Shown: piece by piece, positions 862 through 48,193 of the stretch
Layout of the letters: each line of letters starts with the position of its first letter
Position numbering within the stretch: position 1 is the first letter of the stretch
From: Orobanche coerulescens
Taxonomy: Eukaryota; Streptophyta; Magnoliopsida; Lamiales; Orobanchaceae
Assembly: GCA_033398695.1 (NCBI GenBank)
Contig: CM065803.1
Coordinates: 101,482,001-101,546,000 of the forward strand
Direction of reading: 5' to 3'
DNA: 64,000 nucleotides
The notes under the pieces: model-generated
Told to the model about the DNA's origin: nothing
Seen by the model: the letters and a program-made list of their open reading frames with translations, nothing else
Database searches by the model: none
Made by a program: the position numbers and the translations under genes

Positions 862-1077
862 TAGCGCACGCTAAGTACTCTGTGTAGCGTGCGTTAAGTC
901 TGCTCAATAGCGCACGCAAACAACAAAGCCTAGCGTACGCTAACTATGCATGGTCAGTACTTCACTGATCAGTCGACTGACTCGTCTGATGGCCTAGCGT
1001 ACGTTACGTACCAAACGTAGTGTACGCTAACTCGTGCTCGATAGCGCACGTTAATCTTCATAGCTTAGCGTGCGCTA
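862..1077. repeat. Motif I array, downstream cluster, GypA1 3' LTR
   Basis: Eight copies of the 12-mer TAGCGYRCGCTA (some with one or two changes) start at 862, 885, 908, 931, 995, 1018, 1042 and 1066. The steps are 23, 23, 23, 64, 23, 24 and 24 bases. A 23-bp imperfect palindrome (968-990) fills the central gap. A second 23-bp palindrome, AGTTTACTGC-TGG-GCAGTAAACT, follows at 1090-1112. Confidence 0.9.
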
Positions 1078-1901
1078 TCTGTGCATGGCAGTTTACTGCT
1101 GGGCAGTAAACTATTCTCATCATGATCAAAACAATGAAATCTTCCGTGATAATTCATGTTACCTCCATAAATATCATGTTCATACGATTATGAATGATTT
1201 TACGGATAACAACTCCGGATTCCGGGATATGTATACCATTATAAAACCATATTCCATTTCGACTACAAATCTTCATACGACAATTCGAAAGGCTTTATGG
1301 TTGATATCGACACCTTTATATCAATCAAAATTATCATACTGTAGTTGTTTAACATTCCATCTATACTAGATAAATCCTTCCATGATCAATCCCTTAGATT
1401 CATCTAACAATGATGATGTTAAAGTCAAGTCCATGATTGCTATGAAGTCATCCACTAGATTTGGATTACCAAAGATAGAAGCTTCCTCTACTTGTTCAAT
1501 GTAATAAGATTCGAATCATGATGTTCATAATCAAGGTACTTGAGGCATAACCATCTCTATATTCCAAACATGATGCATGTTGAACAATTTACTAATGAAA
1601 AATCAATATCTTGATAACATGATCATCTAATTCTTTATAATCCAACTCTAAGTCTAGAGATAGGTTGAACATACCTTAATATGATGAAAATCACTGAACC
1701 GTAAGGTAGAATCCGACTCCGGTTGGTTGTATGCCACTCCAAGGTGCTATTCCACTTCAATGATCACTCACAAGTGATAACCAATATACAAAGACCAACA
1801 ATATATGTTCTAAGTGTGTAGAAGGATTATTATAGCTCTATGGCCTCTCAAGAATGAAGAATGGACGACTGAAATGTAAGCCAAAACGGGTTGTTGTCCC
1901 A

Positions 1902-1907
1902 TTTATA
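1902..1907 (-). promoter_or_regulatory. TATA box of GypA1 3' LTR
   Basis: The minus strand reads TATTATAAATGGG. The same sequence is present in the other LTR (9209-9214) and in GypA2 (50971-50979), where it lies just downstream of a motif I cluster. Confidence 0.6.
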
Positions 1908-1928
1908 ATATTCTGCATTTTAGCCGAT

Positions 1929-2153
1929 TAGCGCACGCTACTAAGCATTCCTTAGCGCGCGCTAATAAGAGTTGACTTAAAAATTGTCTAGGTTCGTCGG
2001 CGGGAATCTTACCCGGACCCATGTCCCGGCTAGCGCATGTGCTAACCACCTACCTCAATAATTGAGTTCTTAGCGCACGCAACTCATACATGCATAGTGT
2101 GTGCTAGTAGTAGCCCGATAGCGCGCGTTAAGCTACATTCTTAGCATGCGCTA
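1929..2153. repeat. Motif I array, TATA-proximal cluster, GypA1 3' LTR
   Basis: Copies start at 1929 and 1953 (step 24), then at 2071, 2095, 2119 and 2142 (steps 24, 24, 23), with a longer variant at 2031. Read on the minus strand the cluster ends about 20 bases before the TATA box, so it occupies the promoter-proximal U3. Confidence 0.88.
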
Positions 2154-2308
2154 TCACGAGTTTGCATGAGAAATTTTGCATGTTGTTATACTTATGTACA
2201 AAGATATCAATGCAAGAAATATCATACTCTAATAATCAAAACCATAAATCCGAATAATACAGGGTTTGAATACAGATGAAATACACCGTAATAAATCCGG
2301 ATATTACA

Positions 2309-4014: not shown

Positions 4015-4020
4015 CTCTTT

Positions 4021-7249: not shown

Positions 7250-9615
7250 GTAACACCCCCGATATATTAAGGAATATTACAGCGTCGTAAATCCTTTACA
7301 TATGGATTTACAAGGCTGAAGAATTGAACAGACATTAAAAGGTACTAACGAATGGAAATAACGGAATTACGATACAACAGTTCTAACCAAATACAAAAAA
7401 TAATACAATTGTTCAACAGGAACTTAATAATACATCACCAAATTCAAATTCATCATAAATGACTTCGTACTCGAGTACTTATTGAAATAACCAACAAACA
7501 ACAGACAAATAAACCCGGCCGAAACATCACTCTGCACCCTCGTCGTCATGCAGCTCCAGTGGTTGTTTTCCCGCTCTCCTGGATCCTGAACATAAACACA
7601 ATTTTCACCCCCGAAGGGGTTAGCACAACGATGCTAGTACAAGTACCACAACATATTATTCATATCTCACGAAGAATAATAACGTAAACGACAAAAATAC
7701 CAACGAGTCTTCTCCTACGAGAAACTCATAAATGACATACACAACTGATAATCACAACATGATATCATAACATACACATGGTAATTCCGTCGATCCAGCG
7801 TTCACTGCCTAGAACCCACGATGATCCCGTCAGACCAACCCGTGGTGGAAAAACCCGTCCGATGATCCAGCGCACGCTAGCATAGATCTCGCGATGATCC
7901 CGTCGGACCAACACGAGGTGGACATACAACAATGACATACATGAACAACAATATGTATAACATCAATACATAAAACAATTAAGGTACTTGCCTCGATTTG
8001 AAGACAAGAACAATACTTCCACCAAAACGAACACTCGAAGGTCGTCCTCCTCAATCAATCACGTAACAAGATCAAACCTTAACAAAAGAAATGATATAGG
8101 ATTTATCTCACGCCGCATTTAATGTTTAACAATTCGATTTACGGCCAAAAGTTCATAAAATGTAATCTGCAACCGCTTAGCGACGCTAAGTACTCGTAGC
8201 GTCGTTAAGTCTCGCTCAATAGCGCACGCAAACAACAAAGCCTAGCGACGCTAACTATGCATGGTCGATTACTTCGATCGCCGATCAATCGCTCGATGTC
8301 CTAGCGTACGTTACGTACAAAACGTAGCGTACGCTAACTCGTGCTCGATAGCGCACGTTAATCTTCATAGCTTAGCGTGCGCTATTCATGCATGGCGCCA
8401 TCTTAGGCGAAATCGCTTTCTCATCATGATCAAAACAATGAAATCTTCCGTGATAATTCATGTTACCTCCATGAATATCATGTTCATACGATTATGAATG
8501 ATTTTACGGATAACAACAACTCTGGATTCCGGCATATGTATACCATTATAAAACCATATTCCATTTCGACTACAAATCTTCATACGACAATTCGAAAGGC
8601 TTTACGGTTGATATCGACACCTTTATATCAATCAAAATTATCATACTGTAGTTGTTTAACATTCCATCTATACTAGATAAATCCTTACATGATCAATCCC
8701 TTAGATTCATCTAACAATGATGATGTTAAAGTCAAGTCCATGATTGCTATGAAGTCATCCACTAGATTTGGATTACCAAAGATAGAAGCTTCCTCTACTT
8801 GTTCAATGTAATAAGATTCGAATCATGATGTTCATAATAAAGGTACTTGAGGCATAACCATCTCTATATTCCAAACATGATGCATGTTGAACAATTTACT
8901 AATGAAAAATCAATATCTTGATAACATGATCATCTAATTCTTTAGAATCCAACTCTAAGTCTGGAGATAGGTTGAACATACCTTAATATGACGAAAATCA
9001 CTGAACCGTAAGGTAGAATCCGACTCCGGTTGGTTGTATGTCACTCCAAGGTGCTATTCCACTTCAATGATCACTCACAAGTGATAACCAATATACAAAG
9101 ACCAACAAGATATGTTCCAAGTGTGTAGAAGGATTATTATAGCTCTCTGGCCTCTCAAGAATGAAGAATGGACGACTGAAATGTAAGCCAAAACGGGTTG
9201 TTGTCCCATTTATAATATTCTGCATTTTAGCCGATTAGCGCACGCTACTAAGCATTCCTTAGCGCGCGCTAATAAGAGTTGACTTAAAAATTGTCCAGGT
9301 TCGTCCGCGGGAATCTTACCCGGACCCATGTCCCGGCTGGCGCATGTGCTAACCACCTACCTCAATAATTGAGTTCTTAGCGCACGCAACTCATACATGC
9401 ATAGCGTGCGCTAGTAGTAGCCCGATAGCGCGCATTAAGCTACATTCTTAGCGTGCGCTATCATGAGTTTGCATGAGAAATTTTGCATGTTGTTATACTT
9501 ATGTACAAAGATATCAATGCAAGAAATATCATACTCTAATAATCAAAACCATAAATCCGAATAATACAGGGTTTGAATACAGATAAAATACACCGTAATA
9601 AATCCGGATATTACA
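7250..9615 (-). repeat. GypA1 5' LTR
   Basis: This 2366-bp LTR starts TGTAACACCCCC and ends ATATTACA on the plus strand. It carries the TATA box at 9209-9214 and motif I clusters at about 8170-8395 and 9235-9465. In the first cluster it differs strongly from the left LTR (several copies lose single bases, and the two 23-bp palindromes are scrambled), while the surrounding bases are nearly identical. Confidence 0.95.
8170..8395. repeat. Motif I array, damaged copy, GypA1 5' LTR
   Basis: It is the counterpart of 862-1077. The first copies read TAGCGACGCTA, one base short, while the copies from about 8300 on are intact. The central palindrome is unrecognisable here. See the finding on LTR disagreement. 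Confidence 0.8.
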
Positions 9616-17114: not shown

Positions 17115-17268
17115 TGTAACAACCCGTGATATTCGGAATAATTACGTGTCGTAAACCCTTTAAGTAAGGATTTACAAGGCTAATTTATAAGAAAGGTAAA
17201 TATAAGACATCATCATCATCGGAAATTCAAGTTTACAAAACCGAACAACTGGCTCCGATAACATATTC
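17115..17268 (-). repeat. Extra U5 end plus primer-site fragment at GypB1 left edge
   Basis: Bases 17115-17251 repeat the LTR end that starts again at 17269. They are joined to CTCCGATAACATATTC, which matches the sequence lying between LTR and gag at 33884-33899 (TTCCGATACCATATTC). On the element strand the order is U5 end, primer-site remnant, partial U5 end. The target duplication lies outside the extra piece. Confidence 0.85.
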
Positions 17269-17759
17269 TATAACAACCCGAGATATTCGGAATAATTACA
17301 GCACCGTAAACCCTTTAAGTAAGGATTTACAAGGCTAATTTATAAGAAAGGTAAATATAAGACATCATCATCATCGGAAATTCAAGTTTACAAAACCGAA
17401 CAACTGGTTCAACGAGTAATTAATACAACCATATCGAAATGATATTAATAAGACACGCGTACTCGAGTAGTGAAATCAAACCAAGAAAACAAATCACCAA
17501 CAACAACAAACATCACTGAACCCCTTCATCGTCACGCTTGCATCGTGGTCGCTTTCCTGCTCCTCGGCTACCTGAACATCAAAACAAATGTCCACCCCCG
17601 AAGGGGTTAGCAAAACGATGCTAGTACAAGTATCATATTAAACAATTCGAATATGCATCAACAATACATAACAAGATACACCACACGGACTTCCGCTACC
17701 GGAATCCGACAAATGCGAATCCACAAGATTCCATTAACACAGCAAGGGTATTCCAATGA

Positions 17760-17915
17760 TCCAGCGCCCTCAGCATAGATCCCAAGATGATCCCGTCGGA
17801 CCAACACGAGGTGGAAATAACCCATCCAATGATCCAGCACCCTCAGCCTAGATCCCAAGATGATCCCGTCGGACCAACACGAGGTGGACATCCGATCCAG
17901 CGCCCTCAGCATAGA
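17760..17915 (-). repeat. Tandem repeat in GypB1 U5, about 65-bp unit
   Basis: Each unit runs from GATCCAGCGCCCTCAGCATA through GATGATCCCGTCGGACCAAC to the GAGGTGGA end. Two full units and a partial third are present. GypA1 has a related, more diverged set at 499-605, and the right LTR has the same set at about 34386-34545. Confidence 0.85.
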
Positions 17916-18288
17916 TCGTACAACGTACACAAACACAACTCATGCATACACATATGCCAAATCATTATGTTCATCAACATGAACATACAAACACTAAATA
18001 ACGAATATCATGACAATTCAACGAAATAAATCTCATGTTCAACAAGATGAATAATCGCACGCATGCTCAAAATACCAATATTAACATATTACGATACTTG
18101 CCTCGAAGATGGCAAGAACGAAACACTTCAATGATCTCAACACACTCGAAGGCCGCCTCCTTTGATCAACGTAGCAAGCTCGAACCTTAACAAAATAAAT
18201 GATATACAAATCATTTCAAGTCGAATGATGGCCTAACAATTCGGTTTACGGCCCAAAAGCTCAAAATAAACAAACTGCCTTAACTACT

Positions 18289-18503
18289 TAGCGTACGCTA
18301 CGTACTCTGTGTAGCGTGCGCTAAGCCTGCCTGTTAGCGTATGCTATCGTCTAAGCCTAGCGTACGCTAGCCATAGGCTGACAGTTCTCTCTGATCAGCC
18401 GACTGACTCGGCTGATATCATAACGTACGTTACGTACTAAACGTAGCGTGCGTTAGCTTATCCCCGATAGCGCACGTTAACTTACGTATGTTAGCGTGCG
18501 CTA
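18289..18503. repeat. Motif I array, downstream cluster, GypB1 3' LTR
   Basis: Eight copies start at 18289, 18312, 18335, 18358, 18421, 18444, 18468 and 18492. Steps of 23, 23, 23, 63, 23, 24 and 24 copy the GypA1 layout. Between the two sets of four lies a 23-bp palindrome, ATCAGCCGA-CTGAC-TCGGCTGAT (18394-18416). Confidence 0.92.
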
Positions 18504-19204
18504 ACCTTGCATGGCAGATTACTACAGACAGAAAACTGGATTGAATGGTGATGAACTCATAAATTCTATGGTGATAAAACCAGTCATCCTCAAGCATATC
18601 ATGCTAATAAGGTTTGTGAAAGTTCTATACGTACTAAATGACTATGAGATTCAAAGATACGTATAATCATTACTACACTATCATTCATCTTGATCTTCAA
18701 TGAAATATTCTAAGTTCCGTTCGTCCTACGTTCCAAAACGCATGATTCTAATGTGTAAAACGTAACAACTAGGTAATATCCGTCTACTGATCACAAATTG
18801 GTTTGAAGCTGCTTAGGAGTCCACAAACTAAAAAGGTTCAAGGGTTCATACGATGAATAAGTGCCGAAACGTCGAAACTATCCTTCTAACACATGATGAT
18901 CGATATTGAACGAAATAACTGACTATACAAACATGATCAAATCGTCTTTTAGAACACTACTAATATCGGTGAAGAATCACCTACCTCAAAGTAGTGAAGA
19001 ACAAGGAGAAAATCGAAGCAATCCAACGTCGAAGGCTCGAACACCAATCCTTAAATCATCTACAATCTTCAATCATGAGTTAGGATGTTGATATGAGGTG
19101 TTTAGGATGTAGGAAGTTATGCTCTAAGTGTAAGAATTCGGATGAGGGAGAAGAAAGGACTGAAAATACGAAAAGGATGCTGCTCATTTATAGGAAATGG
19201 TTAT

Positions 19205-19498
19205 TAGCGCGCGCTAGTCCCTGATCGTAGCGTGCGCTAACGGCTACAGACTTTACTGTATTCAGCACTTAGCGTGCGCTATTCACATGCCTGTAGCGTG
19301 CGCTAAGGCGTTGACTTGGCTTTTCCCGAAAGCTGTCCAGGTTCATCCCGACACAATCCGGCCAAGATCCCCGGCCAGATCTCACCTACCGCACGTCTCA
19401 ATCAAATTAACCATGCATAGTGTGCGCTAATGTTCCTTTGTAGCGTGCGCTATGAATCCATGTTAGCGTACGCTACACATAGCTGATAGCGTGCGCTA
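19205..19498. repeat. Motif I array, TATA-proximal cluster, GypB1 3' LTR
   Basis: Copies start at 19205 and 19228 (step 23), 19270 and 19294 (24), then 19418, 19441, 19464 and 19487 (23 each). Read on the minus strand the array ends about 12 bases before the TATA box. Confidence 0.92.
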
Positions 19499-19650
19499 CA
19501 TGCGCAAAATTACAATTTTTAAATCACATACACGAAATCATACGCTCAACAACATCGGATTATGAAATATGGAGAATAATACTCAGACAAAAGTACAATA
19601 ATTACATTATCACAAGTTCCAAATACATAACAGAAATCTCGGGTATTACA

Positions 19651-31724: not shown

Positions 31725-31728
31725 GTGC

Positions 31729-31739
31729 AAGTGGGAGAT
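31729..31739 (+). other. Polypurine tract of Ang-1
   Basis: AAGTGGGAGAT lies directly before the 3' LTR start TGTTAGG. Ang-2 has the same tract. Confidence 0.88.
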
Positions 31740-33882: not shown

Positions 33883-33894
33883 GTTCCGATACCA
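33883..33894 (-). other. Primer binding site of GypB1
   Basis: The minus strand reads TGGTATCGGAAC, five bases after the 5' LTR. It is an initiator Met-tRNA type site with changes near its end. Confidence 0.85.
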
Positions 33895-33899
33895 TATTC

Positions 33900-36280
33900 T
33901 GTAACAACCCGAGATATTCGGAATAATTACAGCGCCGTAAACCCTTTAAGTAAGGATTTACAAGGCTAATTTATAAGAAAGGTAAATATAAGACATCATC
34001 ATCATCGGAAATTCAAGTTTACAAAACCGAACAACTGGTTCAACGAGTAATTAATACAACCATATCGAAATGATATTAATAAGACACGCGTACTCGAGTA
34101 CTGAAATCAAACCAAGAAAACAAATCACCAACAACAACAAACATCACTGAACCCCTTCGTCGTCCACGCAGATCGTGGTCGCTTTCCCGCTCTCGGCTAC
34201 CTCAACATCAAAACAAATGTCCACCCCCAAAGGGGTTAGAAAAACGATGCTAGTACAAGTATCATATTAAACAATTCGAATATGCATCAACAATACATAA
34301 CAAGATACACCAGACGGACTTCCGCTACCGGAATCCGACAAATGCGAATCCACAAGATTCCATTAACACAGCAAGGGTATTCCAATGATCCAGCGCCCTC
34401 AGCATAGATCCCAAGATGATCCCATCGGACCAACACGAGGTGGAAATAACCCGTCCAATGATCCAGCGCCCTCAGCCTAGATCCCAAGATGATCCCGTCG
34501 GACCAACACGAGGTGGACATCCGATCCAGCGCCCTCAGCATAGATCATACAACGTACACAAACACAACTCATGCATACACATATGCCAAATCATTATGTT
34601 CATCAACATGAACATACAAACACTAGATAACGAATATCATGACAATTCAACGAAATAAATCTCATGTTCAACAACATGAATAATCGCACGCTTGCTCAAA
34701 ATACCAATATTAACATATTACGATACTTGCCTCGAAGATGGCAAGAACGAAACACTTCAATGATCTCAACACACTCGAAGGCCGCCTCCTTCGATCAACG
34801 TAGCAAGCTCGAACCTTAACAAAAGAAATGATATACAAATCATTTCAAGTCGAACGATGGCCTAACAATTCGGTCTACGGCCCAAAAGCTCAAAATAAAC
34901 AATCTGCCTGAACTACTTAGCGTACGCTACGTACTCTGTGTAGCGTGCGCTAAGCCTGCCTGTTAGCGTATGCTATCGTCTAAGCCTAGCGTACGCTAGC
35001 CATAGGCTGACAGTTCTCTTTGATCAGCCGACTGACTCGGCTGATATCATAACGTACGTTACGTACTAAACGTAGCGTGCGTTAGCTTATCCCCGATAGC
35101 GCACGTTAACTTACGTATGTTAGTGTGCGCTAACCTTGCATGGCAGATTACTACAGACAGAAAACTGGATTGAATGGTGATGAACTCATAAATTCTATGG
35201 TGATAAAACCAGTCATCCTCGAGCATATCATGCTAATAAGTTTTGTGAAAGTTCTATACGTACTAAATGACTATGAGATTCAAAGATACGTATAATCATT
35301 ACTACACTATCATTCATCTTGATCTTCAAGGAAATATTCTAAGTTCTGTTCGTCCTACGTTCCAAAACGCATGATTCCAATGTCTAAAACGTAAAAACTA
35401 GGTAATATTCGTCTACTGATCACAAATTGGTTTGAAGCTGCTTAGGAGTCCACAAACTAAAAAGGTTCAAGGGTTCATACGATGAATAAGTGCCGAAACG
35501 TCGAAACTATCCTTCTAACACATGATGATCGATATTGAAAGAAATAACTGACTATACAAACATGATCAAATCGTCCTTTAGAACACTACTAATATTGGTG
35601 AAGAATCACCTACCTCAAAGTAGTGAAGAACAAGGAGAAAATCGAAGCAATCCAACGTCGAAGGCTCGAACACCAATCCTTAAATGATCTACAATCTTCA
35701 ATCACGAGTTAGGATGTTGATATGAGGTGTTTAGGATGTAGGAAGTTATGCTCTAAGTGTAAGAATTCGGATGAGGGAGAATAAAGGACTGAAAATACGA
35801 AAAGGATGCTGTCCTATTTATTAGAAATGGTTATTAGCGCGCGCTAGTCCCTGCTCGTAGCGTGCGCTAACGGCTACAGAATTTACTGTATTCAGCACTT
35901 AGCGTGCGCTATTCACATGCCTGTAGCGTGCGCTAAGGCGTTGACTTGGCTTTTCCCGAAATCCATCCAGGTTCATCCCGACACAATCCGACCAAGATCC
36001 CCAGCCAGATCTCACCTACCGCACGTCTCAATCAAATTGACCATGCATAGCGTGCGCTAATGTTCCTTTGTAGCGTGCACTATGAATCCATGTTAGCGTA
36101 CGCTACACATAGCTGATAGCGTGCGCTACATGCGCAAAATTACAATTTTTAAATCACATACACGAAATCATACGCTCAACAACATCGGATTATGAAATAC
36201 GGAGAATAATACTCAGACAAAAGTACAATAATTACATTATCACAAGTTCCAAATACATAACAGAAATCTCGGGTATTACA
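33900..36280 (-). repeat. GypB1 5' LTR
   Basis: 2381 bp, TGTAACAACC to GGGTATTACA, almost identical to 17269-19650. Motif I clusters lie at 34918-35132 and 35835-36128. The TATA site has decayed to TTTATT (about 35816-35821). Confidence 0.95.
34918..36128. repeat. Motif I arrays in GypB1 5' LTR
   Basis: Both arrays of the other LTR are present with the same 23-24 base steps: eight copies at 34918-35132 with the central palindrome, and eight at 35835-36128. Only a few single-base changes are seen, such as TAGTGTGCGCTA at 35121. Confidence 0.9.
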
Positions 36281-38269
36281 AGTTCGAGTAAAGACTTCCC
36301 AAAATTTCAAGATCAAAATATCAAGGGAAACAGTTTATAAAGTGATTTGAAATACCATCGGGAGTTTTAATAGAAAACAATTTAGGATTATAAAATCCCG
36401 CTTTTCAAAACCCAAAAGACGAAAGGGGTCACCGCCCCAAAGGTTTACTTTCCGAAAAATGACCTTTACCAAACCATTGGGATTTAGCCCCAAATCCATA
36501 AAATGACTTTTACAAAACCATTGGGATTTTAGCCCCAAATCTCATCAACTCACAGTACACAAGAACGACCACAAGGTTCGTCTCCCAACATCAAAATACA
36601 CAAATAAAGGATTTAACACAAACAACAAAATACTCTAGTGCCATCCTAGCCAAGTAAGCCAAACAAACACTTACCTCTTACACACTTAGTCGATGCATGC
36701 AATCATGAAAACCATTCGAAAGCACTCATTTCCGGAAATGCCATTATCAAATCACATTTGCAAAATGCACCACAATTAACCGCGGACCCACCCCTCCGTG
36801 GATCCCTACCGAGACCCCGTCGGATCTAACCCGTAGTGGTTAAAAGCAAGCTCGCGGATCCACCCCTCCGTAGACCCCTACCGAGACCCCGTCGGATCTA
36901 ACCCATAGTTAGCACACACACACACACACTTTACTCATGCAATACTAACATGCTAAGAATGTAAGTTCATCAAGAATACTTACTAGGGATGACCACTAAT
37001 CCGACACCATTATCAAACTCTTCAAAAACACAATAACAAGATTAAATACGGAATACATGATTCCATAACTTTAAACAACAGGAGTATCATCATCAAAGAC
37101 TTCAACGTTCAAAATAATCAAATTGTAACCAATTCCCTAAACACACCGTTCACAAATCACAAGCGTTTTGAAAGAAAGCCTTTAACGAGGCCAAACCGAA
37201 ATCTTTTGAAAACTCATTTGCAAATAACCAAACAAACACACCAACACGACCATCGATCATCTTATCCACAAAACGAGAAGCGTATGAACAAGGTACTTGC
37301 CTCGAATAAGAACAACGCGAAGAATCGACCGAAGTAGGTTGACATGAACCGACTACGAACCCGCCGATTCCACCGATTGCCAACTCGCGTTCATAAAATA
37401 CGAAGGACAATAACAACAATGAAATGAATTCTATAACATGACTCAAAGCCGCTGAATTCAAATAACAAATGACGAAGGTTCAAGGATTTCCCCCAAAACG
37501 GCCAAGAACACGATTCGTTCCGTCAAAACCCGAAAACGGAATTACAAGTTGAAATATGGATATACAATCCATAGAATATGTTTAACAACATCATTTAACT
37601 ATAATCGATCCACCAAAAACGGATGAAAAACGAGATCGAGGACAAATCCCCCAAAAAGTCGATTCGAAGGAAATCAAGAAATATACTTCGATTCGACGAA
37701 GAACAATGGATTAAATGATGTTAAACACAAGAATACTACCAAGATTAATCATACCCATCATGAATTAATCAATAATACGGAACGAATCGGACAAAAACGC
37801 AAAAACCCCAAAATTCAAGAAACTAGGGTTCTAATTACCTTGATTCGCTGGATCAAAGGACGATATAGGATGATTTATTGATGATATAACCTCAATAACT
37901 TCGAGGATTTGTTGTCAAACAACATGGCTCCAGGATGAGCATACCCTTAGCCGCGGAAGAGAAGGAGAAGGAGGAGAAAAATGGCCAAAAACCCGTCTGC
38001 AGGGCCATAAATAGGCTGCACAGTTTGCCACGGCCCAGCGGGAGTGTGCCGCGGCACAGGCCCAAAAATGGCTCCCAGTGGTCGGCAGTGTTCCGCGGCC
38101 CGGCCGGCGTTTGCCGCGGCACCCGGTACAGTCGGTTTGGCCGAAAAATGCCACAGAGTGTGCCGCGGCCCTGCCGACATGTGCCGCGGCCCCACGGTAC
38201 GGCCTGCTCGGCCAGAAGCTGCCGAGCACTACCGGCCGTGACTCGGCCAGTGCCGTCTTGGGCCCAGAT
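36281..38269 (-). repeat. LARD-2 3' LTR, second segment
   Basis: It continues from 17114 after the AGTTC duplication and is the reverse complement of the middle of a LARD LTR. It has the tandem pair around 36779-36907 and a motif II array near its right end. Parts beyond about 37300 differ from LARD-1, so LARD-2 belongs to another subfamily. It ends in CAGAT (38265-38269), duplicated at 48194-48198 by Sire-1. Confidence 0.88.
38025..38192. repeat. Motif II array in LARD-2 LTR
   Basis: Copies start at 38025, 38046, 38090, 38111, 38160 and 38181, as three pairs each with a 21-base step. The copy at 38046 is the perfect palindrome GTGCCGCGGCAC. CTCGGCCAG follows at about 38208 and 38243. Confidence 0.88.
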
Positions 38270-38364
38270 TGTTGACACAAAATGTATTTTGATGATGGTT
38301 TCATACAAAACATTTAATTGGATCAATCTCGGCTCGATAATATTTTGAAGGAGCAAAATATAAC

Positions 38365-39148
38365 TAACGCACGCTACTCATCATATCGTAGCGCACGCTA
38401 TCGGGACATTCATATACAGACCAGTCAAGTCAGCTGCAGCCTACTAAAGTCGCCTGATCGATAGCGCACGCAAGCTATTCAAAGATAGCGCACGCTAAGA
38501 ACCTACAGTTAGCGCACGCTATACAACAAATATAACGCACGCTATCGCAAGTCTCTAGAGGTCAGTGAAGTCTGGAAGGAAATCGGGACCGACGTTGCGC
38601 ACGCTACACATATATTCTTACGTACGCTAAAGTGAGGACATAGCGCACGTTACTTATCATCTCTAGCGCACGCTACCAAAATTATGGTTAGTAGTCCAGT
38701 AGCTACTGGACTCACTTCGTCAAGGCTCTTACGTACGCTACACAAGGTAACGTACGTTAATGAAATAACTCAGTAGCGCACGCTAAGGGAAAGGTATTAG
38801 CGCACGCTAAATGGAATCTAGCCACCGTTTGAATTTCAACCGTTGGAAGCAAGAGTCAATGCATCCGGAAAATCTGGAAAAGTTGATTTAATTAATGCTA
38901 GCGCACGCTATGCATACTGCAGCGCACGCTAATCATAAATTTAGCTGGATAAAGAGTCGTGGAGAGAAAATCGGATATTGTCAAAGTCAAGATCAAGACC
39001 GATTGACCAGCGTTAGCGCACGCTACCATTGCATTACTAGCGCACGCTAGACATGGTATTTTACCGTTGCAACAGTCTTTGTGACCGTTCAGAGATTTCA
39101 AGTCAAAATCCGTTAGCGCACGTTACAAGGCACTATTAGCGCACGCTA
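38365..39148. repeat. Motif I array in Sire-1 5' LTR, about 20 copies
   Basis: Starts at 38365, 38389; 38462, 38486, 38510, 38533; 38595, 38618, 38641, 38664; 38729, 38748, 38774, 38798; 38899, 38920; 39014, 39038; 39114, 39137. Nearly all steps within a group are 23-24 bases. Most copies are TAGCGCACGCTA, with TAACGTACGTTA and TTACGTACGCTA among the variants. Confidence 0.93.
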
Positions 39149-39186
39149 ATAGTATGTTTTTCAAGATTTTAAGGCTTTCTCACACC

Positions 39187-39194
39187 TATAAATA
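39187..39194 (+). promoter_or_regulatory. TATA box of Sire-1 5' LTR
   Basis: TATAAATA lies 39 bases after the last motif I copy. The right LTR has it at 47570-47577. Transcription would begin about 30 bases downstream. Confidence 0.75.
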
Positions 39195-39812
39195 CCCGAA
39201 GGACTTGGGTATCAAACACACAACTTCAAGCATTCAAGCATACAAGCATACAAGCAATCAAAGCATTCTTGAGCTCAGATTTATATATTTTATTGCATTA
39301 CAAGTTGTGAGAAAAGAAAGATACAAGAGCGATTTCAATTGTAATATCTACTATTCTTTGTACTCTTTCATTTGGTTGTAAGTGTTGCATCACTTACACT
39401 TGAGCGAAAAAGAAACGAATCAAGAGTCACTAATCCGGGGTTATTAGGATCTTTGATCCGGCATTGTTAGGATTATACTCCCATATTCGTATAGTGAGGA
39501 TTATCTAGTTCCTATAGAACACTAGATAAACAATCATTTATATTGAGGGAAAGGTTGAGCTTGGACCGATAGAAGACAAGCGGATTGTAACGGTTGTGAA
39601 CTCGGACCGATAGAAGACGAGTTAAGGTTGTGGTTTTTCTTAAGCCAATAGAAAAAGTAAGTCGGAGAGAGGACGTAGGCAAGTTGCCGAACCTCTATAA
39701 ATTCTTGAGTCTTTAAATTCCGCACTATTTTCCTTTTACTCGCAAGAAATTTCGGTATTCCGCATCACCACTATTCAACCCCCCCTTCTAGTGGTGAATT
39801 TATCTCTTCAGT

Positions 39813-39871: not shown

Positions 39872-41582
39872 ATGGCACTTCTTGTCCAAATTGAAGGAAA
39901 TGCTCTCAACCGTCCTCCTTTCTTCGACGGTTCCAATTTCATGACGTGGAAAAAGAAGATGGCGATCTTCGTTCAAGCCTACGATATTGAAATCTGGAAA
40001 GTTATTGCTCTCGGTCCTAAACTTGCTAAGAAAGAAGATGGATCGTTGAAAAAGATCGAAGAATTCAACGATGAGGATTGGAGAAACACGCATGTCAACT
40101 CACGAGCTACTCAACTCCTCTATTGTGCTCTCAATCCCGAAGAACTCAATAGGATATCATCCTATGAAAGTGCAAAAGAAATTTGGGAAATTCTCAAGTC
40201 ACTCACGAGGGAACCACCCAAGTCAAGGAGACCAAAATTAATATGTTACTCCATGACTACGAATTATTTTCCATGAAAGACGAGGAAACGATCACAAATA
40301 TGTTGGATCGATTTTCGGCTATAACAAACGGTCTTGCATCTTTCGGAAAGCCTATATCGAGCAAATGACAAAGCTAAGAAAATTCTTCGATCATTGCCAC
40401 GAGAATGGGATGCCACGGTCACCGCGATCATGGAATCTAAGGATCTCAACAAGCTCGAATTTAGTGCCCTCATCGGGTCACTCATCAACTATGAGATCGT
40501 TCTCAAGTCTAGAGGCACAAAACCAAAGCCTCGGGAAAGAGTAGTCGCATTCAATGTTGATAGCGACGTTGAGGAAGATGTTGCCGAAGATGAAGACGAC
40601 GAGGAACTCGCTCTTTATGCCAAAAACTTTAGAAGGTACAAAAACCTAATTCAAAAGAGGCGAAGTTTTCTTGGTCGGGATGGCAAATCGGAGCAAAAGA
40701 AGAGTGGCTACACTCCTATCAAGAAGTTCGACAATAATTGTCGAAAATGTGGTCAAGCCGGTCATTATGCCAAAGAATGCCGAGGATCCTCTTCAAAACC
40801 ACAAATGGAAAGATTCAAAAAGAAGGAGGTTCTAATCGCTTCTTGGAGTGATGACGAGGAGGAGATTGAAAGATATCTAGACGGAAATCTTGCATTCATG
40901 GCCCTCGACTCCGAAAGCAATATCGAGGTAAGCTCTAAACTCAATGATGATGAATATGACTCTTTTGATTTTTGTGATTCACAAGAAGTTCATCAAGATG
41001 ATGAGTTGTTGAGTGCGTTTGAATCGTTAAATACGGAGTATGACGAGATGGTCAAGTTAAATATATCTTTAAAGAGAAAAATAAAATCTCTAGAACTCGA
41101 AAACTCCTCGCTTCAAAACAAGGGCAAAACTATTGAGACCGACCATACTTCATGTCTTGAAAAAGAAAATGTTTTGAAAATTGAATTAACAAAAACTCAA
41201 AAGGAGCTAAAATATATTTTGAACAAATTTACTCTAAACGAAATTCGAAAGGCTCCTATCTATTCAAAAATCGCCCTTGCTCAAACACGGTCTTGGTTTC
41301 GACCCTTTTAAACGGGAACAATCCCTTATTAACCTTGACAAAATAAAGAAAACCGAAACCGAGAACCCAAAAGATCCGTTCAAACGAGTTCACAATGTTA
41401 ATACCCATTCAAAGTTAAGAACTATCAAAGTTAAGAAAATATGGGTTCCGAAAGGGACGATTGTCCCGAATGCTATAAGCATAGTTAACTTTGGAGGACC
41501 CAAACGGGCTTGGGTACCGAAACAACCGAGAAATTCTACTTTTGTAGGTACCGGCACCAAGGAAAAACAAGTGGTACATTGA
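39872..41582 (+). pseudogene. Sire-1 gag, frameshifted
   Basis: The start at 39872 gives MALLVQIEGNALNRPPFFDG and the copia gag domain (NFMTWKKKMAIFVQAYDIEI). The frame shifts near 40200-40215 into ETKINMLLHDYELFSMKDEE, then again near 40350 into AKKILRSLPREWDATVTAI. The long last part has a zinc knuckle, CRKCGQAGHYAKEC (about 40741-40782), an acidic stretch and a coiled-coil-like segment (MVKLNISLKRKIKSLELENS). Another shift near 41280 leads into KKIWVPKGT and PKRAWVPKQ, the tail before protease. Three or four single-base shifts beside an intact pol may be real decay or consensus error. Confidence 0.87.
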
Positions 41583-44500
41583 TAGGGGATGCTCAAGGCA
41601 CATGTGCGGTTCCGAGGACTTATTTGAAGACCTCGAATATCAAGATCAAGGACATGTGACCTTTGGAGATAATCAAAAGGGAAAAATCAAAGGAATCGGC
41701 AAAGTCGGTAAGGAACCTTCTCCTTCTATCAACAAAGTACTATTTGTTGAAGGTTTACATCATAATCTCCTTAGCGTTTCGCAACTTTGTGATGAAGGCT
41801 TTAAAATTCTATTTGAGCAAACGCATTGCACGGCATTTAGAAATAATAAAATTGCATTCATTGGTTTGAGATGTGGAAATATCTATATTGTTGATCTTAA
41901 TGATAAAAGTTCTTTCAATGAAAAATGCCTTATTACCTTGGATGACAATGCATATTTATGGCATCGAAAATTGGGGCATACTTCTCTACCTATTATTTCT
42001 ATTTTATCTAGACACGACCTTGTTCGTGGATTGCCCAAACTCAAATTCGATAGAAAACATTTGTGTGAATCATGCATTAAAGGGAAACATACTCGAGAAT
42101 CGTTTAAACCAAAATTCGAGGTTTCCACTAGTCGAGTTCTTGAACTCGTACATATGGATTTGATTGGACCATCTAGACATGTTAGTTTAAATGGTAAACT
42201 TTATACTTTGGTTATTGTTGATGATTTCTCTCGATTTACTTGGGTTAGATTTTTAGCTCATAAAGATGATGCATTTTCCGAGTTTTCTAAATGGTGTCGT
42301 TTGGTATCAAACGAGAAAAACCTCTCCATAATTTCTATTCGCACCGACCACGGAGGTGAATTTGATTGCACCCCGTTTGAACTTTTATGTGATAAATACG
42401 GTATTAATCACAATTTTTCGGCTCCTAGAATGCCTCAACAAAATGGAGTTGTTGAAAGGAAAAACAGATCTTTGGAAGAAATGTCGAGGACAATGTTAAA
42501 TGAATACTCTCTTCTACGATACTTTTGGGCCAAAGCAATTTTTACGGCATGCTATGTGATTAACCGAGTTCACGTCCGTAGAACTCATCTTAAGACCCCG
42601 TATGAATTATGGAAGGGCAAAAAGCCCAATATTGCTTATTTTCATCCCTTTGGTTGCAATGTATTTATTTTGAACAATGGCAAGGATAACTTGGGCAAGT
42701 TTGATGCCAAATCCGACTCCGGAATATTTCTTGGTTATTGTACTAATAGCAAAGCATATCGTGTGTATAATATTAGAACAAATAAAGTTGAAGAGTCCAT
42801 ACACGTTAAATTCAATGATATGATTTCACCCCCGAGAAAGGTAGAATATTTTGATGATGCAGGTACCTTTCCGGATCCCTCACCCGAAGTGAAGAAAATT
42901 TCGGAAATCGAAACAAACATAATCGTTGATTTACCGAAAGATTGGAGGCACATCAAGGACCATCCGAAGGATCTCGTGATCGGAAACATTGAAGACGGTG
43001 TTCAAACCCGAAGGAGGACCACCGAATTTATGGCTCATTGTGCTTTTGTATCCGAAATAGTTCCCAAAAATATATCCGAAGCTCTCGATGATGAAAGTTG
43101 GGTGATGGCAATGCAAGAGGAGCTTGTGCAATTCAAGCACAATAATGTATGGAATTTAGTTCCCGCGCCTAAAGATAAAACAATTATCGGAACTAAATGG
43201 GTGCATAAAATCAAGAGTGACGAAGACGGCTATCCTATTCGAAATAAATCTCGTTTGGTCGCTCAAGGATCTAATCAAGAAGAAGGTCTTGATTACGAAG
43301 AAAGTTTTGCTCCCGTGGCTCGACTCGAAGCCATTCGCTTGCTTTGTGCATTTGCCGCTCATAAGAAGATAAAACTATTTCAAATGGATGTCACAAGTGC
43401 ATTCTTGAATGGTTTCATTCAAGAAGAAGTCTACGTCAAGCAACCTCCCGGTTTTGAAGACCATCATTTTCCAAATCATGTCTACATGCTCAACAAGGCA
43501 CTCTACGGGTTGAAGCAAGCACCCCGAGCATGGTATGATCGTTTAAGTCAATTTTTAATAGCAAATGACTATAAAAGAGGCAAAGTCGATAATACCTTGT
43601 TTGTTAAAGTACTAAATGATGATATACTTGTTTGCCAAATTTACGTTGATGACATTGTTTTTGGAGCTACTAATGAATCCTTGTGCCAAGATTTTTCTAA
43701 TCTTATGAAAGGAGAATTCGAAATGAGTATGATGGGAGAATTAACGTTCTTCCTCGGGCTTCAAATCAAACAATGCGAAGATGGAATTTTTATCCATCAA
43801 ACAAAGTACTCAAACGACCTCCTCAAGAAATTCAACATGGAAAATAGCAAGGTGATATCTACACCAATGTCGTCATCATTAAAGCTTGAGAAAGATGAAA
43901 ATGGCAAATCCGTAGATCAAAAATTATATCGAGCTATGATCGGATCTTTGCTATATTTGACTGCATCTAGGCCAGATATAATATTTGCTACATGTCTATG
44001 TGCTCGATTCCAAGCTAATCCCAAGGAATCACATTTAATTGCTTGTAAACGCATTTTTCGCTATTTAAAAGGAACTATTGGACTAGGTCTATGGTATCCT
44101 TCTTGCTTGGACTTTAATTTAATTGCCTATAGTGACGCCGATTTCGGCGGATGCAAAATTGACAAAAAGAGTACTAGTGGTACATGTCATTTTGTTGGAT
44201 CTTGTTTAATATCTTGGGGAAGTAAAAAGCAAACCAGCGTAGCATTGTCTACAGCTGAGGCCGAATATGTCGCTGCAGGGAGCGCCTGTGCTCAAGTGCT
44301 ATGGATTAAAAATCAACTACGCGACTACGGCATTCATTTTAAAAATACGCCTATCTTATGTGATAACACTAGTGCTATTAATTTGAGCAAAAATCCTGTT
44401 TTGCACAGTAGAACCAAACATATAGATATTAGACATCATTTTTTACGTGATCATGTTCAAAAGAAAGATATATGTTTAATTTTTGTCGGGATGAAGGATC

Positions 44501-44592
44501 AACTTGCTGACATCTTTACAAACCCTCTTCCCGAAGAATCTTTTAACTCCATTCGTTTACAACTTGGCATGGGACATGTAGACAACTTTTGA
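41572..44592 (+). CDS. Sire-1 pol: protease end, integrase, RT, RNase H
   Basis: The frame is open from before 41572, where it reads [13 protein letters not shown]; the usual Asp-Ser-Gly of the protease is Asp-Arg-Gly, so cleavage is doubtful. Counting from the Met at 41602 (996 codons), integrase has its HHCC finger at about 120-160 ([19 protein letters not shown]) and the triad in [16 protein letters not shown] and [12 protein letters not shown] runs from about 490 to 760 with [15 protein letters not shown] and the active site QIYVDDIVF near 682. RNase H has [20 protein letters not shown] and CDNTSAINL. The end has ADIFTNPL for the usual TKPL. There are no internal stops. Gag lies in a different frame. 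Confidence 0.94.
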
Positions 44593-44640: not shown

Positions 44641-44888
44641 TAGCGCGCGCTAGCTTCATATTCTTAACGCGCGCTAAAATCTGCATTCGATAGCGTACGC
44701 TAAACTCTACCTTCTTGCGTACGCTAATTACAGTTTTTCGAATTCCACTGGACAGTCCAGTAAGCCCTTCTTTTTCGCCTAACGTACGCTAACTCTACAA
44801 TCCTAGCGTACGCTAACTTAAAGTTTGCTGACTATATATATATATTTCCGTACAACCCTAAAACACATCTCATCCCTAACGTACGCAA
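44641..44888. repeat. Motif I cluster between Sire-1 pol and the extra ORF
   Basis: Starts at 44641 (TAGCGCGCGCTA), 44665, 44691, 44715, 44780, 44804 and 44877. Steps within pairs are 24. Between the second and third pair lies the 15-bp palindrome ACTGGACAGTCCAGT (44747-44761). Confidence 0.92.
44833..44845 (+). promoter_or_regulatory. Possible internal TATA box before the extra ORF
   Basis: TATATATATATAT lies 18 bases after a motif I copy and about 140 bases before the ORF start at 44983. The arrangement repeats that of the LTR promoter. Promoter activity is inferred. Confidence 0.45.
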
Positions 44889-44982
44889 TCGACTTCTCTC
44901 TTGCAAAACCCTAGACACACATCCGATCCAATCTGCGAGCTTCTCCCTCAAAATCTTCGATTCTCTTCGTCTTTCCTTCATT

Positions 44983-46236
44983 ATGTCTAGAAAAAATCGC
45001 AAGGCTATGGAGAAGAACTATAAACGTCCTCGCAACAATAATTTCGACAGCAATCGATTCGTCTCCTTCATTGCGTCGAAAATTTTCTTCGATGTTCTTC
45101 CGCAAGAAACCTTGACCGATTGCTACTATTTCAACTTCAGTAGCCTTGAACGGGTCAAGGTAAGCATTCGCGATTTTTTTGAAGCTTTGGGTATTGCACG
45201 TTTTGTCGAGTGCAAGGAAATTGTGTACCCTGAGTGTGTTCGTCAATTCTATGCGAATTTACATCTTGGTGAAAGTGGTAATAGAGGTTTCGTGCTCGAA
45301 AGCCTCGTGAACGGGACTATGGTGAAGGTTTCGACGGAAATCCTTCACGAATTGTTTGGGTTGTCGAAGGAAGGATTTGATTGTTGTGGTAAAATCCTTG
45401 ATGAGGAATCTGCGGTGTCAGAGGGAGAGATTGCTAATTTTCTGTGTTCGAAAACAGTCATCGAAGTCACGGATGACGTTTTCGAAAACAATGATTTCGG
45501 TATACACATTCGGTTGCTGTTGGCCGCTTTAACGAAATGCCTAATGCCAAAGGTCAACACCCAACATAAGCTAGTTGGTGTTGATAAGAATGTCGTATCT
45601 GAAGTCAAGGATGATCGAGTAGATTTCACTGGGATTGTGTTAAGTTGGATGAAGGCTAAAGGGGAGTCCTTTCGGTCAAAGAACTATATGTCGAGAACCA
45701 GGAAGTCTGGACTGCCATACGGGTCAATCCTTATGGTGATTTTTCGTCATTTCAGTGTTGATTTGTCCAATGACGCTCACGTTCCGGTGTCTCAGGGACA
45801 CGAGATAAGTGACATAACCCTCAAGGCCATGCACTATGTCGAGACCTTCAATCGAGGTTGGGTTTTGTTTCCATATCTCCGAGATGACGACCAAGTGCCG
45901 AAAGGCACACGGATGCCTACACCGACTGAGCAAGTCATGCACCGAGGACCCCACACGCTTAAGGAGCTGCAGTCCAAGTCTTTTGTTCGTCATCCAAGAA
46001 CGAAAGGAAAACGCCCGATGAGAGATGTGGTGACGGAAGAGGAGGAAAGTGATCTCTGTGCTCGGATGCGGGGCATCGAGACCTCACACACTGAGATACG
46101 AGAGGATGTTCGGGCTCTGCGTTCAGAAGTCCGGGAAGTGCGCTCAGAAGTCCGGGAAGTTCGTGGGCTGATATCCGAGTTCATACGTTACACACACCCC
46201 TCGTTCCCTTTCCCTTCGTCTTCCTCCGATCCTTAG
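44983..46236 (+). CDS. Sire-1 extra ORF, 417 codons, function unknown
   Basis: An intact frame downstream of pol, where Sireviruses carry an envelope-like or other extra gene. The N-terminus is basic (RKNRKAMEKNYKRPRNNN). The middle (CVRQFYANLHL, TEILHELFGL, LPYGSILMVIFRHFSVDL) recalls the plant domain annotated as a putative plant transposon protein in Athila and Sirevirus ORFs, recognised from memory. A basic patch (RTKGKRPMRD) precedes a C-terminal coiled coil of about residues 365-400 with repeated RSEVREV heptads, encoded by a 21-bp tandem repeat. I see no clear signal peptide or strong membrane segment, which argues against a working envelope. The role is unknown. Confidence 0.85.
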   Translation: MSRKNRKAMEKNYKRPRNNNFDSNRFVSFIASKIFFDVLPQETLTDCYYFNFSSLERVKVSIRDFFEALGIARFVECKEIVYPECVRQFYANLHLGESGNRGFVLESLVNGTMVKVSTEILHELFGLSKEGFDCCGKILDEESAVSEGEIANFLCSKTVIEVTDDVFENNDFGIHIRLLLAALTKCLMPKVNTQHKLVGVDKNVVSEVKDDRVDFTGIVLSWMKAKGESFRSKNYMSRTRKSGLPYGSILMVIFRHFSVDLSNDAHVPVSQGHEISDITLKAMHYVETFNRGWVLFPYLRDDDQVPKGTRMPTPTEQVMHRGPHTLKELQSKSFVRHPRTKGKRPMRDVVTEEEESDLCARMRGIETSHTEIREDVRALRSEVREVRSEVREVRGLISEFIRYTHPSFPFPSSSSDP

Positions 46237-46623
46237 ATTTGATGATCTCTGATGTCTGATGTAGAAACTTGTCTTCGAACAATCTAAATGTCGTTTGCCA
46301 TGAAAGCTCGTTGTATTCACTGCATTTTATCTTATTGAAATTCGCATTTCTTCATTTGGCATTTGTTATGTACAAGTATTTGATATTTACAAGTATTGTT
46401 ACTGTTGTTTACTAGTATTGTTGATTGCACCTTGAATAATGGCAAACTTTCGTTGATATTTATTAATAATGCAACAATTCAGGAGGAGTTCCTTTTTGTT
46501 TATGTCAAAAAGGGGGAGAATACTCCAAAAACGAAAATTTACTAATATATCGAACAAGTTTACCTTGATTCGAATTATTTCAAAATGTTTTTGCAGGTAT
46601 TAATTAAATGTTTTGACATCATC
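46237..46623 (+). other. Sire-1 3' untranslated region with an extra polypurine tract
   Basis: Non-coding. AAAAAGGGGGAGAA at 46507-46520 copies the true polypurine tract 117 bases downstream. Repeated purine tracts are a known Sirevirus feature. The rest is T-rich. Confidence 0.8.
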
Positions 46624-46636
46624 AAAAAGGGGGAGA
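46624..46636 (+). other. Polypurine tract of Sire-1
   Basis: AAAAAGGGGGAGA, one base before the 3' LTR. Confidence 0.93.
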
Positions 46637-46637
46637 T

Positions 46638-48193
46638 TGTTGACACAAAATGTATTTTGATGATGGTTTCATACAAAACATTTAATTGGATCAATCTCGG
46701 CTCGATAATATTTTGAAGGAGCAAAATATAACTAACGCACGCTACTCATCATATCGTAGCGCACGCTATCGGGACATTCATATACAGACCAGTCAAGTCA
46801 GCTGCAGCCTACTAAAGTCGCCTGATCGATAGTGCACGCAAGCTATTCAAAGATAGCGCACGCTAAGAACCTACAGTTAGCGCACGCTATACAACAAATA
46901 TAACGCACGCTATCGCAAGTCTCCAGAGGTCAGTGAAGTCTGGAAGGAAATCAGAATTGGACGTTGCGCACGCTACACATATATTCTTATGTACGCTAAA
47001 GTGAGGACATAGCGCACGCTACTTATCATCTCTAGCGCACGCTACCAAAATTATGGTTAGTAGTCCAGTAGCTACTGGACTCACTTCGTCAAGGCTCTTA
47101 CGTACGCTACACAAGGTAACGTACATTAATGAAATAACTCAGTAGCGCACGCTAAGGGAAAGGTATTAGCGCACGCTAAATGGAATCTGCAGTTTACCGT
47201 TTGAATTTCAACCGTTGGAAGCAAGAGTCAATGCAGATCCGGAAAATCTGGAAAAGTTGGATTTAATTAATGCTAGCGCACGCTATGCATACTTGCTAGC
47301 GCACACTAATCATAAATTTAGCCGTTGGATAAAGAGTCGTTGGAGAGAAAATCGGATATTGTCAAAGTCAAGATCGAAGACCAGTTGACCAGGCGTTAGC
47401 GCACGCTACCATTGCATTACTAGCGCACGCTAGACATGGTATTTTACCGTTGCAACAGTCTTTGTGACCGTTCAGAGATTTCAAGTCAAAATCCGTTAGC
47501 GCACGTTACAAGGCACTATTAGCGCACGCTAATAATATGTTTTTCAAGATTTGAAGGCTCTCACACACCTATAAATACCCGAAGGACTTGGGTATCAAAC
47601 ACACAACTTCAAGCATTCAAGCATACAAGCATACAAGCAATCAAAGCATTCTTGAGCTCAGATTTATATATTTTATTGCATTACAAGTTGTGAGAAAAGA
47701 AAGATACAAGAGCGATTTCAATTGTAATATCTACTATTCTTTGTACTCTTTCATTTGGTTGTAAGTGTTTCATCACTTACACTTGAGCGAAAAAGAAACG
47801 AATCAAGAGTCACTAATCCGGTGTTATTAGGATCTTTGATCCGGCATTGTTAGGATTATACTCCCATATTCGTATAGTGAGGATTATCTAGTTCCTATAG
47901 AACACTAGATAAACAATCATTTATATTGAGGGAAAGGTTGAGCTTGGACCGATAGAAGACAAGCGGATTGTAACGGTTGTGAACTCGGACCGATAGAAGA
48001 CGAGTTAAGGTTGTGGTTTTTCTTAAGCCAATAGAAAAAGTAAGTCGGAGAGAGGACATAGGCAAGTTGTCGAACCTCTATAAATTCTTGAGTCTTTAAA
48101 TTCCGCACTATTTTCCTTTTACTCGCAAGAAATTTCGGTATTCCGCATCACCACTATTCAACCCCCCCTTCTAGTGGTGAATTTATCTCTTCA
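46638..48193 (+). repeat. Sire-1 3' LTR
   Basis: 1556 bp, TGTTGACAC to TATCTCTTCA, followed by CAGAT. The motif I array (46733-47531) and TATA box (47570-47577) match the left LTR. At 47275-47310 it reads TAGCGCACGCTA and TAGCGCACACTA at a 23-base step, where the left LTR has a shorter step. Confidence 0.96.

Follow-up and report, generated by a model that had tools for sequence, protein, structure and literature searches.

A 12-bp near-palindrome, repeated at a pitch of 23–24 bp, was found in Orobanche coerulescens, in arrays within the long terminal repeats (LTRs) of a Ty1/copia element, an env-bearing Sirevirus, and of several, but not all, Ty3/gypsy families. The whole stretch of DNA analyzed, referred to as the window, comprises 64,000 nucleotides (nt) of contig CM065803.1 (assembly GCA_033398695.1, positions 101,482,001 to 101,546,000, forward strand) and contains gypsy elements of two families, GypA and GypB, and one Sirevirus (Sire). 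A first-pass annotation of this DNA had noticed that motif and pitch recur in the LTRs of both superfamilies without alignable spacers; this observation held, and its extent proved larger than first described. With modest confidence, the arrays are interpreted from their sequence as a promoter or enhancer code read by one sequence-specific protein, probably a host protein, which copia and gypsy elements would share and keep by selection.

The motif TAGCGYRCGCTA, with the core CGYRCG, matched the window exactly 63 times, as compared with no match in 100 dinucleotide shuffles. Its most frequent sense-strand form was TARCGCACGCTA. The exact sites were distributed over the GypA LTRs (5 and 6), the GypB LTRs (11 and 10), the Sire LTRs (10 and 11), the linker ahead of the Sirevirus env (3) and an additional GypA copy at 50573-52273 (7). 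When up to 2 mismatches were allowed, 120 sites were present in the window. The roughly 20 sites per Sire LTR and 14–16 per Gyp LTR reported initially did not apply to exact sites and were reached only at this lower stringency, with 20 and 18 sites within the arrays of the Sire LTRs, 16 and 16 in those of GypB, and 14 and 11 in those of GypA. Each GypA LTR held one extra isolated site with 1 mismatch outside its arrays. In the whole genome searched (3.65 Gb, 1,279 contigs), 1,309,842 copies of TAGCGYRCGCTA were counted, as compared with 108 copies of the reversed control.

A systematic sample of 25 loci, each 10 kb long and placed at set positions (250 kb; 20 loci on C1-C4 and 5 on other contigs), was analyzed. 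All 88 exact sites in the sample, like all 63 in the window, had a neighboring site with at most 2 mismatches within 150 nt. The motif is thus very common, but in the sample it occurred only as arrays and not simply everywhere, the case that the first-pass annotation had named as fatal to its idea; chance and general abundance were rejected as explanations on the reversed control and on the finding that 0 of 88 exact sites were isolated. Arrays of at least three sites (up to 2 mismatches) were present in 13 of the 25 loci, including L012 with a variant palindrome. Together with those of the window, L001 and L007, the sampled arrays numbered 39 and fell into 17 groups that were mutually unalignable over 150 nt, where one element can hold several groups.

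The pitch was sharply defined. Genome-wide, 268,679 pairs of exact full sites were found at step 23 and, with sites trimmed by the outer base, 139,823 pairs at step 24 and 1,069 at step 25; the count at step 24 exceeded that at step 25 about 130-fold. Shorter steps of 20–22 were infrequent in the sample (18 in total, compared with 61 at step 23 and 24 at step 24). Groups of two to four sites were parted by larger steps, chiefly 53-54, 62-66 and 73-76. Spacer identity within arrays was 24–36% in 9 of 10 arrays, compared with 27.6% between families. Since spacers within an array were about as dissimilar as those of different families, the pitch does not chiefly reflect recent tandem duplication. 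The spacers of L013 were exceptional, being 52% alike inside the array, and L024 contained a repeated stretch of palindromes and spacers.

Other repeat designs were also encountered in the sample. Locus L012 (2333-2764, 3560-4060 and 9690-9935) carried arrays of a different palindrome, TWACGTACGTWA, at steps of 23 (also 46 and 69), so that the pitch was retained though the palindrome had changed on both sides; a TATA-like run was seen by eye after the last site. L014:2066-2328 and L022:1104-1426 showed a different design, with repeats at 62–66 bp (and about double) centered on GAGGCCTC, and L029:7541-10000 consisted of a 202-bp unit in about 12 tandem copies with 88% matches.

The loci were assigned to families by tblastn with the window proteins. 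In L017, L018, L019, L010, L024 and L028, arrays adjoined the end of gypsy pol, and in L034 and L035 gypsy gag-pol was flanked by two array-bearing LTRs each. On the copia side, arrays flanked the gag of L009, to which L011 aligned, and the array of L033 was located between a Sirevirus-like env and pol. L001, without a domain assignment of its own, aligned to gypsy LTR arrays. No Pfam match was obtained for L013 in the 6 of 19 frames scanned; a four-site array (5846-5926) lies in the interior of this element.

Next to the pitch, the conservation of the motif distinguished it from the intervening DNA. In seven between-family comparisons (one copia and six gypsy, of which three involved the same GypB array), the ten fixed motif bases were 91.2–95.8% identical, compared with 64.9–82.0% for the spacers (Fisher p 3.3e-4 to 1.9e-13). 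A column was counted as motif if either sequence had a site, so that losses in both escape the count, and since element copies are non-independent the p values characterize the alignments rather than repeated evolution. When the two LTRs of an element were compared, motif and spacer did not differ significantly in 6 of 8 cases (7 elements); in the Sire LTR pair, for example, they were 98.2% and 98.0% identical.

The step series quoted in the first-pass annotation for the first GypA and GypB LTRs (23,23,23,64,23,24,24 and 23,23,23,63,23,24,24) were exact. However, the accompanying statement that most other bases differ was wrong: the two LTRs aligned at about 77% over 450 nt, and the spacers of the shared array were 70.6% identical. 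Judged by their sequences, GypA and GypB are relatives, and because the two families are homologous their matching steps are inherited and are no sign of independent spacing. The comparison of copia with gypsy gave a different picture. No match between Sire and gypsy LTRs was among those listed in the self-alignment (matches >250 nt). After masking of the palindromes, 4 of 45 copia-gypsy array pairs passed z 3, with a maximum of 4.8 (L017-L011), as compared with 13 of 36 gypsy or gypsy-like pairs, with values up to 108. The Sire-L001 pair reached z 4.4; this alignment, the best of Sire with a gypsy-like array, consisted mostly of an 18-bp second palindrome with two bases different. Since few masked copia-gypsy pairs passed z 3, and none beyond 4.8, what the two superfamilies have in common is signals rather than an alignable segment. 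An intact segment copied between copia and gypsy was sought at the DNA level, and none was found.

A second motif, AGTCCAG/CTGGACT, was located in the gaps between palindrome groups. AGTCCAG occurred in 9 of 12 chosen representatives, whereas no 7-mer exceeded 6 in 200 first-order shuffles, and was 22 times denser within arrays (21 in 12.6 kb) than outside (23 in 301 kb). It was carried by the LTR and pre-env arrays of the Sirevirus, by L009/L011, by the gypsy or gypsy-like loci L017, L018, L019, L001, L013 and L033, by both arrays of L034 and by one of the two of L035; it was absent from the GypA-type arrays of L010, L024 and L028. The second motif is common to both superfamilies, yet not in every array.

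The near-palindromes were oriented relative to the elements in most arrays. Among the 14 arrays of the main count, the ratio of CA to TG at the sense-strand center was 17:0, 11:0 and 10:0 in copia LTRs, 13:1, 9:1, 12:1, 6:0, 3:1, 2:2 and 2:3 in gypsy arrays, 9:0 in L001 and 6:0 in L013, while two pre-env arrays had only TA and CG centers. Counted separately, L034 (13:1 and 13:0) and L035 (9:1 and 11:1) followed the majority pattern. G was replaced by A at position 3 in 15 of 72 copia and 24 of 97 gypsy sites, and the mirror change at position 10 was seen in 4 of 72 and 2 of 97, where both LTRs of some elements were included.

A TATAWA box followed 17 of 22 array ends at a distance of 11–43 nt, whereas 4.6% of random places had one within 50 nt; the 22 ends left out the arrays of L010, L024, L028, L023, L030, L007, L012 and L033. 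The distance was 11–21 nt in gypsy arrays and 38–43 nt in copia LTRs. The five ends without a box belonged to one L013 copy, the GypB upstream array and the downstream arrays of GypA, GypB and the additional GypA copy. In GypA and GypB, this downstream array lies about 850–900 nt past the first; because no TATA box follows, it probably falls within the LTR portion that is transcribed. Pre-env arrays with the second motif were present in two Sirevirus-like loci. In the window copy (44815-44983), a TATATATA run lies 17 nt beyond the sixth palindrome of the pre-env array, some 150 nt short of the env ATG; the run precedes the seventh palindrome, and the sixth was chosen as reference after viewing the sequence. 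This run is a candidate internal promoter of the Sirevirus env.

The motif, its pitch, its orientation in most arrays, the second motif in some, the TATA boxes and the conservation above spacers were observed directly, and from them we infer binding, the kind of reader and an effect on transcription. A dimeric, sequence-specific protein, most probably a transcription factor of the host, would occupy each near-palindrome, and the packing at 23–24 bp would let neighboring complexes fit or cooperate. In the Sirevirus and some gypsy families, a second factor may bind the AGTCCAG/CTGGACT sites that occupy the wider gaps separating groups of two to four palindromes. The assembled complex would recruit transcription to the TATA box 11–43 nt downstream and, in the window Sirevirus, also to the second TATA that precedes env. 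Copia and gypsy lineages of this host would use the same code, retained by selection. Such a promoter code would account for pitch, conservation and orientation, for the TATA positions and for the repetition of the module ahead of env, and kinship of the elements is not needed. Among the causes proposed in the first-pass annotation, a putative shared host DNA-binding protein fitted best.

Several observations weigh against a promoter code of this generality. The GypA arrays with ratios of 2:2 and 2:3 are unoriented, TATA boxes followed 0 of 3 ends of GypA/GypB-type downstream arrays, the GypB upstream array had none either, and the nearest TATAWA to the pre-env array of L033 lies about 180 nt on. 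Since 14 of 39 arrays carried the second motif, among them none of the 10 GypA/GypB window arrays, a two-motif code is not general. No site with up to 2 mismatches was present in L016, L020, L021, L027 and L032 despite gypsy pol, although for some of these loci the LTR may fall outside the sampled 10 kb. L031 combined gypsy pol with only two scattered 2-mismatch sites, and its coding DNA (pol) was about 88% identical to that of the array-bearing L035 and L017; therefore, close relatives can lack the code. In L034 and L035, the motif exceeded the spacers within LTR pairs too, which is unexpected for neutral copies and to which ascertainment or alignment may contribute. Finally, because the gypsy families are related to each other, their orientation and TATA distance may have been inherited from a single event, and the one clearly independent comparison is that of copia with gypsy. 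As a separate observation (L031:1391-3284, compared with L035 and L017), the array-free LTR of L031 carries five TCGGCCGA palindromes at steps 98, 51, 25 and 51.

How copia and gypsy came to share the code is a question of its own. It is possible, although we rather doubt it, that one LTR promoter segment was transferred long ago between Sirevirus and gypsy elements by template switching or recombination, after which the spacers decayed and the motifs were kept; this account is about origin and does not conflict with the same promoter function. The CA-on-sense orientation, the groups of four, the 62–66 nt gaps and the second motif, shared by copia and some gypsy arrays, would fit such a transfer, as would the 18-bp palindrome in the Sire-L001 alignment, and close gypsy kin with different arrays (L031 and L035) are expected if LTR modules are gained and lost. 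However, masked copia-gypsy pairs rarely passed z 3 when compared with gypsy pairs, and TATA distances differ between the superfamilies. Module exchange by recombination had also been proposed in the first-pass annotation; exchange itself may have occurred, but no intact shared segment was found. Repeated recruitment of the same factor is slightly favored over one old transfer. A wider claim, which we consider unlikely, is that one trans-acting protein, encoded by host or element, governs copia and gypsy together through the 23–24 bp code, so that the about 1.3 million sites would be a common on-switch and a protein sink, and the protein may resist silencing rather than activate.

An element-encoded reader would resemble VANC, the anti-silencing protein of VANDAL transposons, with other families exploiting it via its sites. 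In Arabidopsis, VANC motifs lie in tandem repeats of their own transposon and VANC6 motifs also in the unrelated AT9TSD1, according to the portion of the paper available (PMC5735166), and the sites here were, as sampled, exclusively in arrays. This explanation is improbable: no candidate protein was found in the frames scanned, the scanned gypsy frames of the window gave gag-pol domains only, the model of the env-position open reading frame (ORF) is unusable (mean pLDDT 40), and most array ends adjoin TATA boxes, as promoters would. Slightly less probable again is a role in RNA, where transcript hairpins formed by the palindromes would feed small-RNA silencing or packaging. Maize small RNAs are in excess over Sirevirus LTR palindrome clusters (Bousios 2016, as cited in the accessible part of PMC10760457), and the mean folding energy of the four arrays tested was lower than that of shuffled windows. 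Yet both half-sites were altered in 21 of 312 sites, compared with 23.9 expected if they mutate independently, and few 110-nt windows fell below -40 kcal/mol (0/34, 1/26, 2/6 and 1/6), the maize threshold given in the part of Martin et al. 2023 that was available (PMC10760457). Moreover, most arrays have an oriented center, and step 25 is far rarer than step 24. As a source of small interfering RNA (siRNA), hairpins are unlikely, as neither compensatory pairing nor strong local folding was found; the 24-nt siRNA effect suggested in the first-pass annotation fits poorly, since step 23 outnumbers step 24, half-sites do not co-vary and predicted folding is weak. Neutral growth, in which slippage or unequal exchange multiplied a 23–24 bp unit, would suit L013 and L024 but is very improbable for arrays of which 9 of 10 have spacers about as dissimilar as those between families and whose motif evolves more slowly than the spacers.

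The promoter code proposed here has a precedent in part. In the sections of Bousios et al. 2010 available (PMC2829016), Sirevirus LTRs are described with many palindromic repeated-motif (RM) boxes upstream of TATA and with more boxes ahead of env in env-bearing Sireviruses, in agreement with the statement in the first-pass annotation that such clusters precede the TATA box in maize Sireviruses. The window Sirevirus follows this plan in both respects. The published core is CGG-CCG (except in Tnd-1), whereas it is CGYRCG here. Moreover, the boxes are called Sirevirus-specific in those sections and absent from the classic Ty1/copia elements compared, whereas here gypsy LTRs had box and pitch too, both in the window and in L017, L018, L019, L034 and L035, and some gypsy families also shared the second motif with the Sirevirus. 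An internal env promoter was not conclusively identified there; in the window element, a TATA run comes after the pre-env array. In maize, the palindrome CACCGGACNNNGTCCGGTG is typical of copia LTR structures and occurs also in Helitrons, there in 10.7% of structured regions (Martin et al. 2023, PMC10760457, in part); the other group is thus Helitrons there and gypsy LTRs here. The VANC motifs of VANDAL (Hosaka et al. 2017, PMC5735166, in part) are alike in being short, multiplied in non-coding transposon parts and present in one unrelated element. They differ in that VANDALs are DNA transposons with an element-encoded reader, and a fixed 23–24 bp pitch or TATA linkage is not described in the part available. 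Regarding the reader, the half-site T-W-R-C-G-Y resembles the NAC core TTNCGT[G/A] or T[G/A]CGT, and NAC proteins bind as dimers, but in their palindromic sites CGT and ACG lie 7–8 nt apart instead of abutting as here (PMC4081100, in part). By this analogy, NAC proteins might be candidate readers, as a lead only. The brassinosteroid element CGTGCG would be another lead.

The element layout of the window was derived from self-alignment and Pfam scans of frames (Table 1). The Sirevirus has the 9-bp primer-binding site TATCAGAGC after its 5' LTR (TTGGTATCAGAGCGGG at the LTR end) and the polypurine tract AGGGGGAG followed by AT/TG at the 3' LTR (AAAAAGGGGGAGATTGTTGACAC); both are those given for Sireviruses in the available text of Bousios et al. 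2010 (PMC2829016). Its integrase (rve, 179-278) precedes the reverse transcriptase (RVT_2, 514-757) in the same frame, as in copia. GypA and GypB show the gypsy domain order of reverse transcriptase, RNase H, integrase (recognized through its zinc-binding domain) and Tf2-1 SH3, with a protease in GypA only. The chromodomain match of GypB was weak (PF00385, E 8e-4, 19.7 bits compared with a cut-off of 25.1), and none was listed for GypA. From LTR start and junction sequence, both presumably belong to Tekay/Del. All 24 proteins similar to the env-position ORF came from Orobanche species (47–60% identity), from a database that may contain few plants; in its structure model, built from 24 aligned sequences, the sole confident part was a C-terminal helix (about 352-404). 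The two further copia elements were free of arrays, with a single 2-mismatch site at 31105 inside the first, and the repeat pair was also array-free. An open frame of 319 aa at 62530-63489 runs opposite to the GypA-type coding strand, and L024 and L010 contain stretches similar to it.

Table 1. Elements, arrays and associated signals in the window.
Feature	Position	Strand	Details
GypA LTR, cut off by window start	1..2308	-	Ty3/gypsy; partner LTR 7319-9615; self-blast 96.1%
GypA downstream array, 8 sites	862..1077	-	steps 23,23,23,64,23,24,24; no TATA after
GypA upstream array, 6 sites	1929..2153	-	
GypA frames gag, protease, reverse transcriptase, RNase H, integrase	2344-7034	-	Pfam scan
GypA second LTR	7319..9615	-	self-alignment
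GypA second-LTR downstream array, 5 sites	8220..8384	-	
GypA second-LTR upstream array, 6 sites	9236..9460	-	TATAAA 21 nt downstream (9209-9214, minus)
Repeat pair	10419 and 15451		
GypB LTR	17254..19650	-	Ty3/gypsy; partner 33885-36280; self-alignment 97.5%
GypB downstream array, 8 sites	18289..18503	-	steps 23,23,23,63,23,24,24
GypB upstream array, 8 sites	19205..19498	-	
GypB pol	19686-22640		reverse transcriptase, RNase H, integrase zinc finger, Tf2-1 SH3, weak chromo
Two further copia elements	24220-33615, 52273-61740		1.9-kb LTRs
GypB second LTR	33885..36280	-	self-alignment
GypB second-LTR downstream array, 8 sites	34918..35132	-	
GypB second-LTR upstream array, 8 sites	35835..36128	-	no TATAWA in next 60 nt
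Sirevirus 5' LTR	38266..39810	+	partner 46634-48193; 97.6%
Sirevirus 5' LTR array, 20 sites	38365..39148	+	TATAAA 38 nt downstream (39187-39192)
Second motif, 18-bp palindrome GTCCAGTAGCTACTGGAC	38694..38711	+	between palindrome groups; recurs at 47063-47080 in 3' LTR
Sirevirus gag and pol frames	40334..44592	+	integrase ahead of reverse transcriptase; Pfam scan
Sirevirus pre-env linker array, 7 sites	44641..44888	+	second motif 44747-44761; TATATATA run from 44833
Sirevirus env-position ORF, 417 aa	44983..46236	+	PF20167 under its cut-off; homologues in Orobanche
Sirevirus 3' LTR	46634..48193	+	self-alignment
Sirevirus 3' LTR array, 18 sites	46733..47531	+	TATAAA 38 nt downstream (47570-47575)
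Additional GypA copy	50573-52273		split around copia element 52273-61740; beyond range of first-pass annotation
Additional GypA copy, upstream array, 6 sites	50728..50952	+	TATAAA 21 nt downstream (50974-50979)
Additional GypA copy, downstream array, 8 sites	51805..52015	+	no TATA after

That Sireviruses carry palindromic boxes, both in their LTRs and upstream of env, was already known, while the sharing of one box and pitch with gypsy LTRs appears unreported: in titles and abstract starts of the open-licence literature, no report of a palindrome box shared by copia and gypsy was found, and no plant paper was found there by title for the motif strings. If the promoter code proposed here is real, retrotransposons with unrelated machinery would have come to one regulatory code within their host, either by convergence or by exchange. 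The reader of the Sirevirus palindromes would have to recognize TARCGCACGCTA, favor a pitch of 23–24 bp and tolerate almost no 25, and the Sirevirus env would gain a candidate internal promoter. It would also hint at how one motif could exceed a million copies in a genome.

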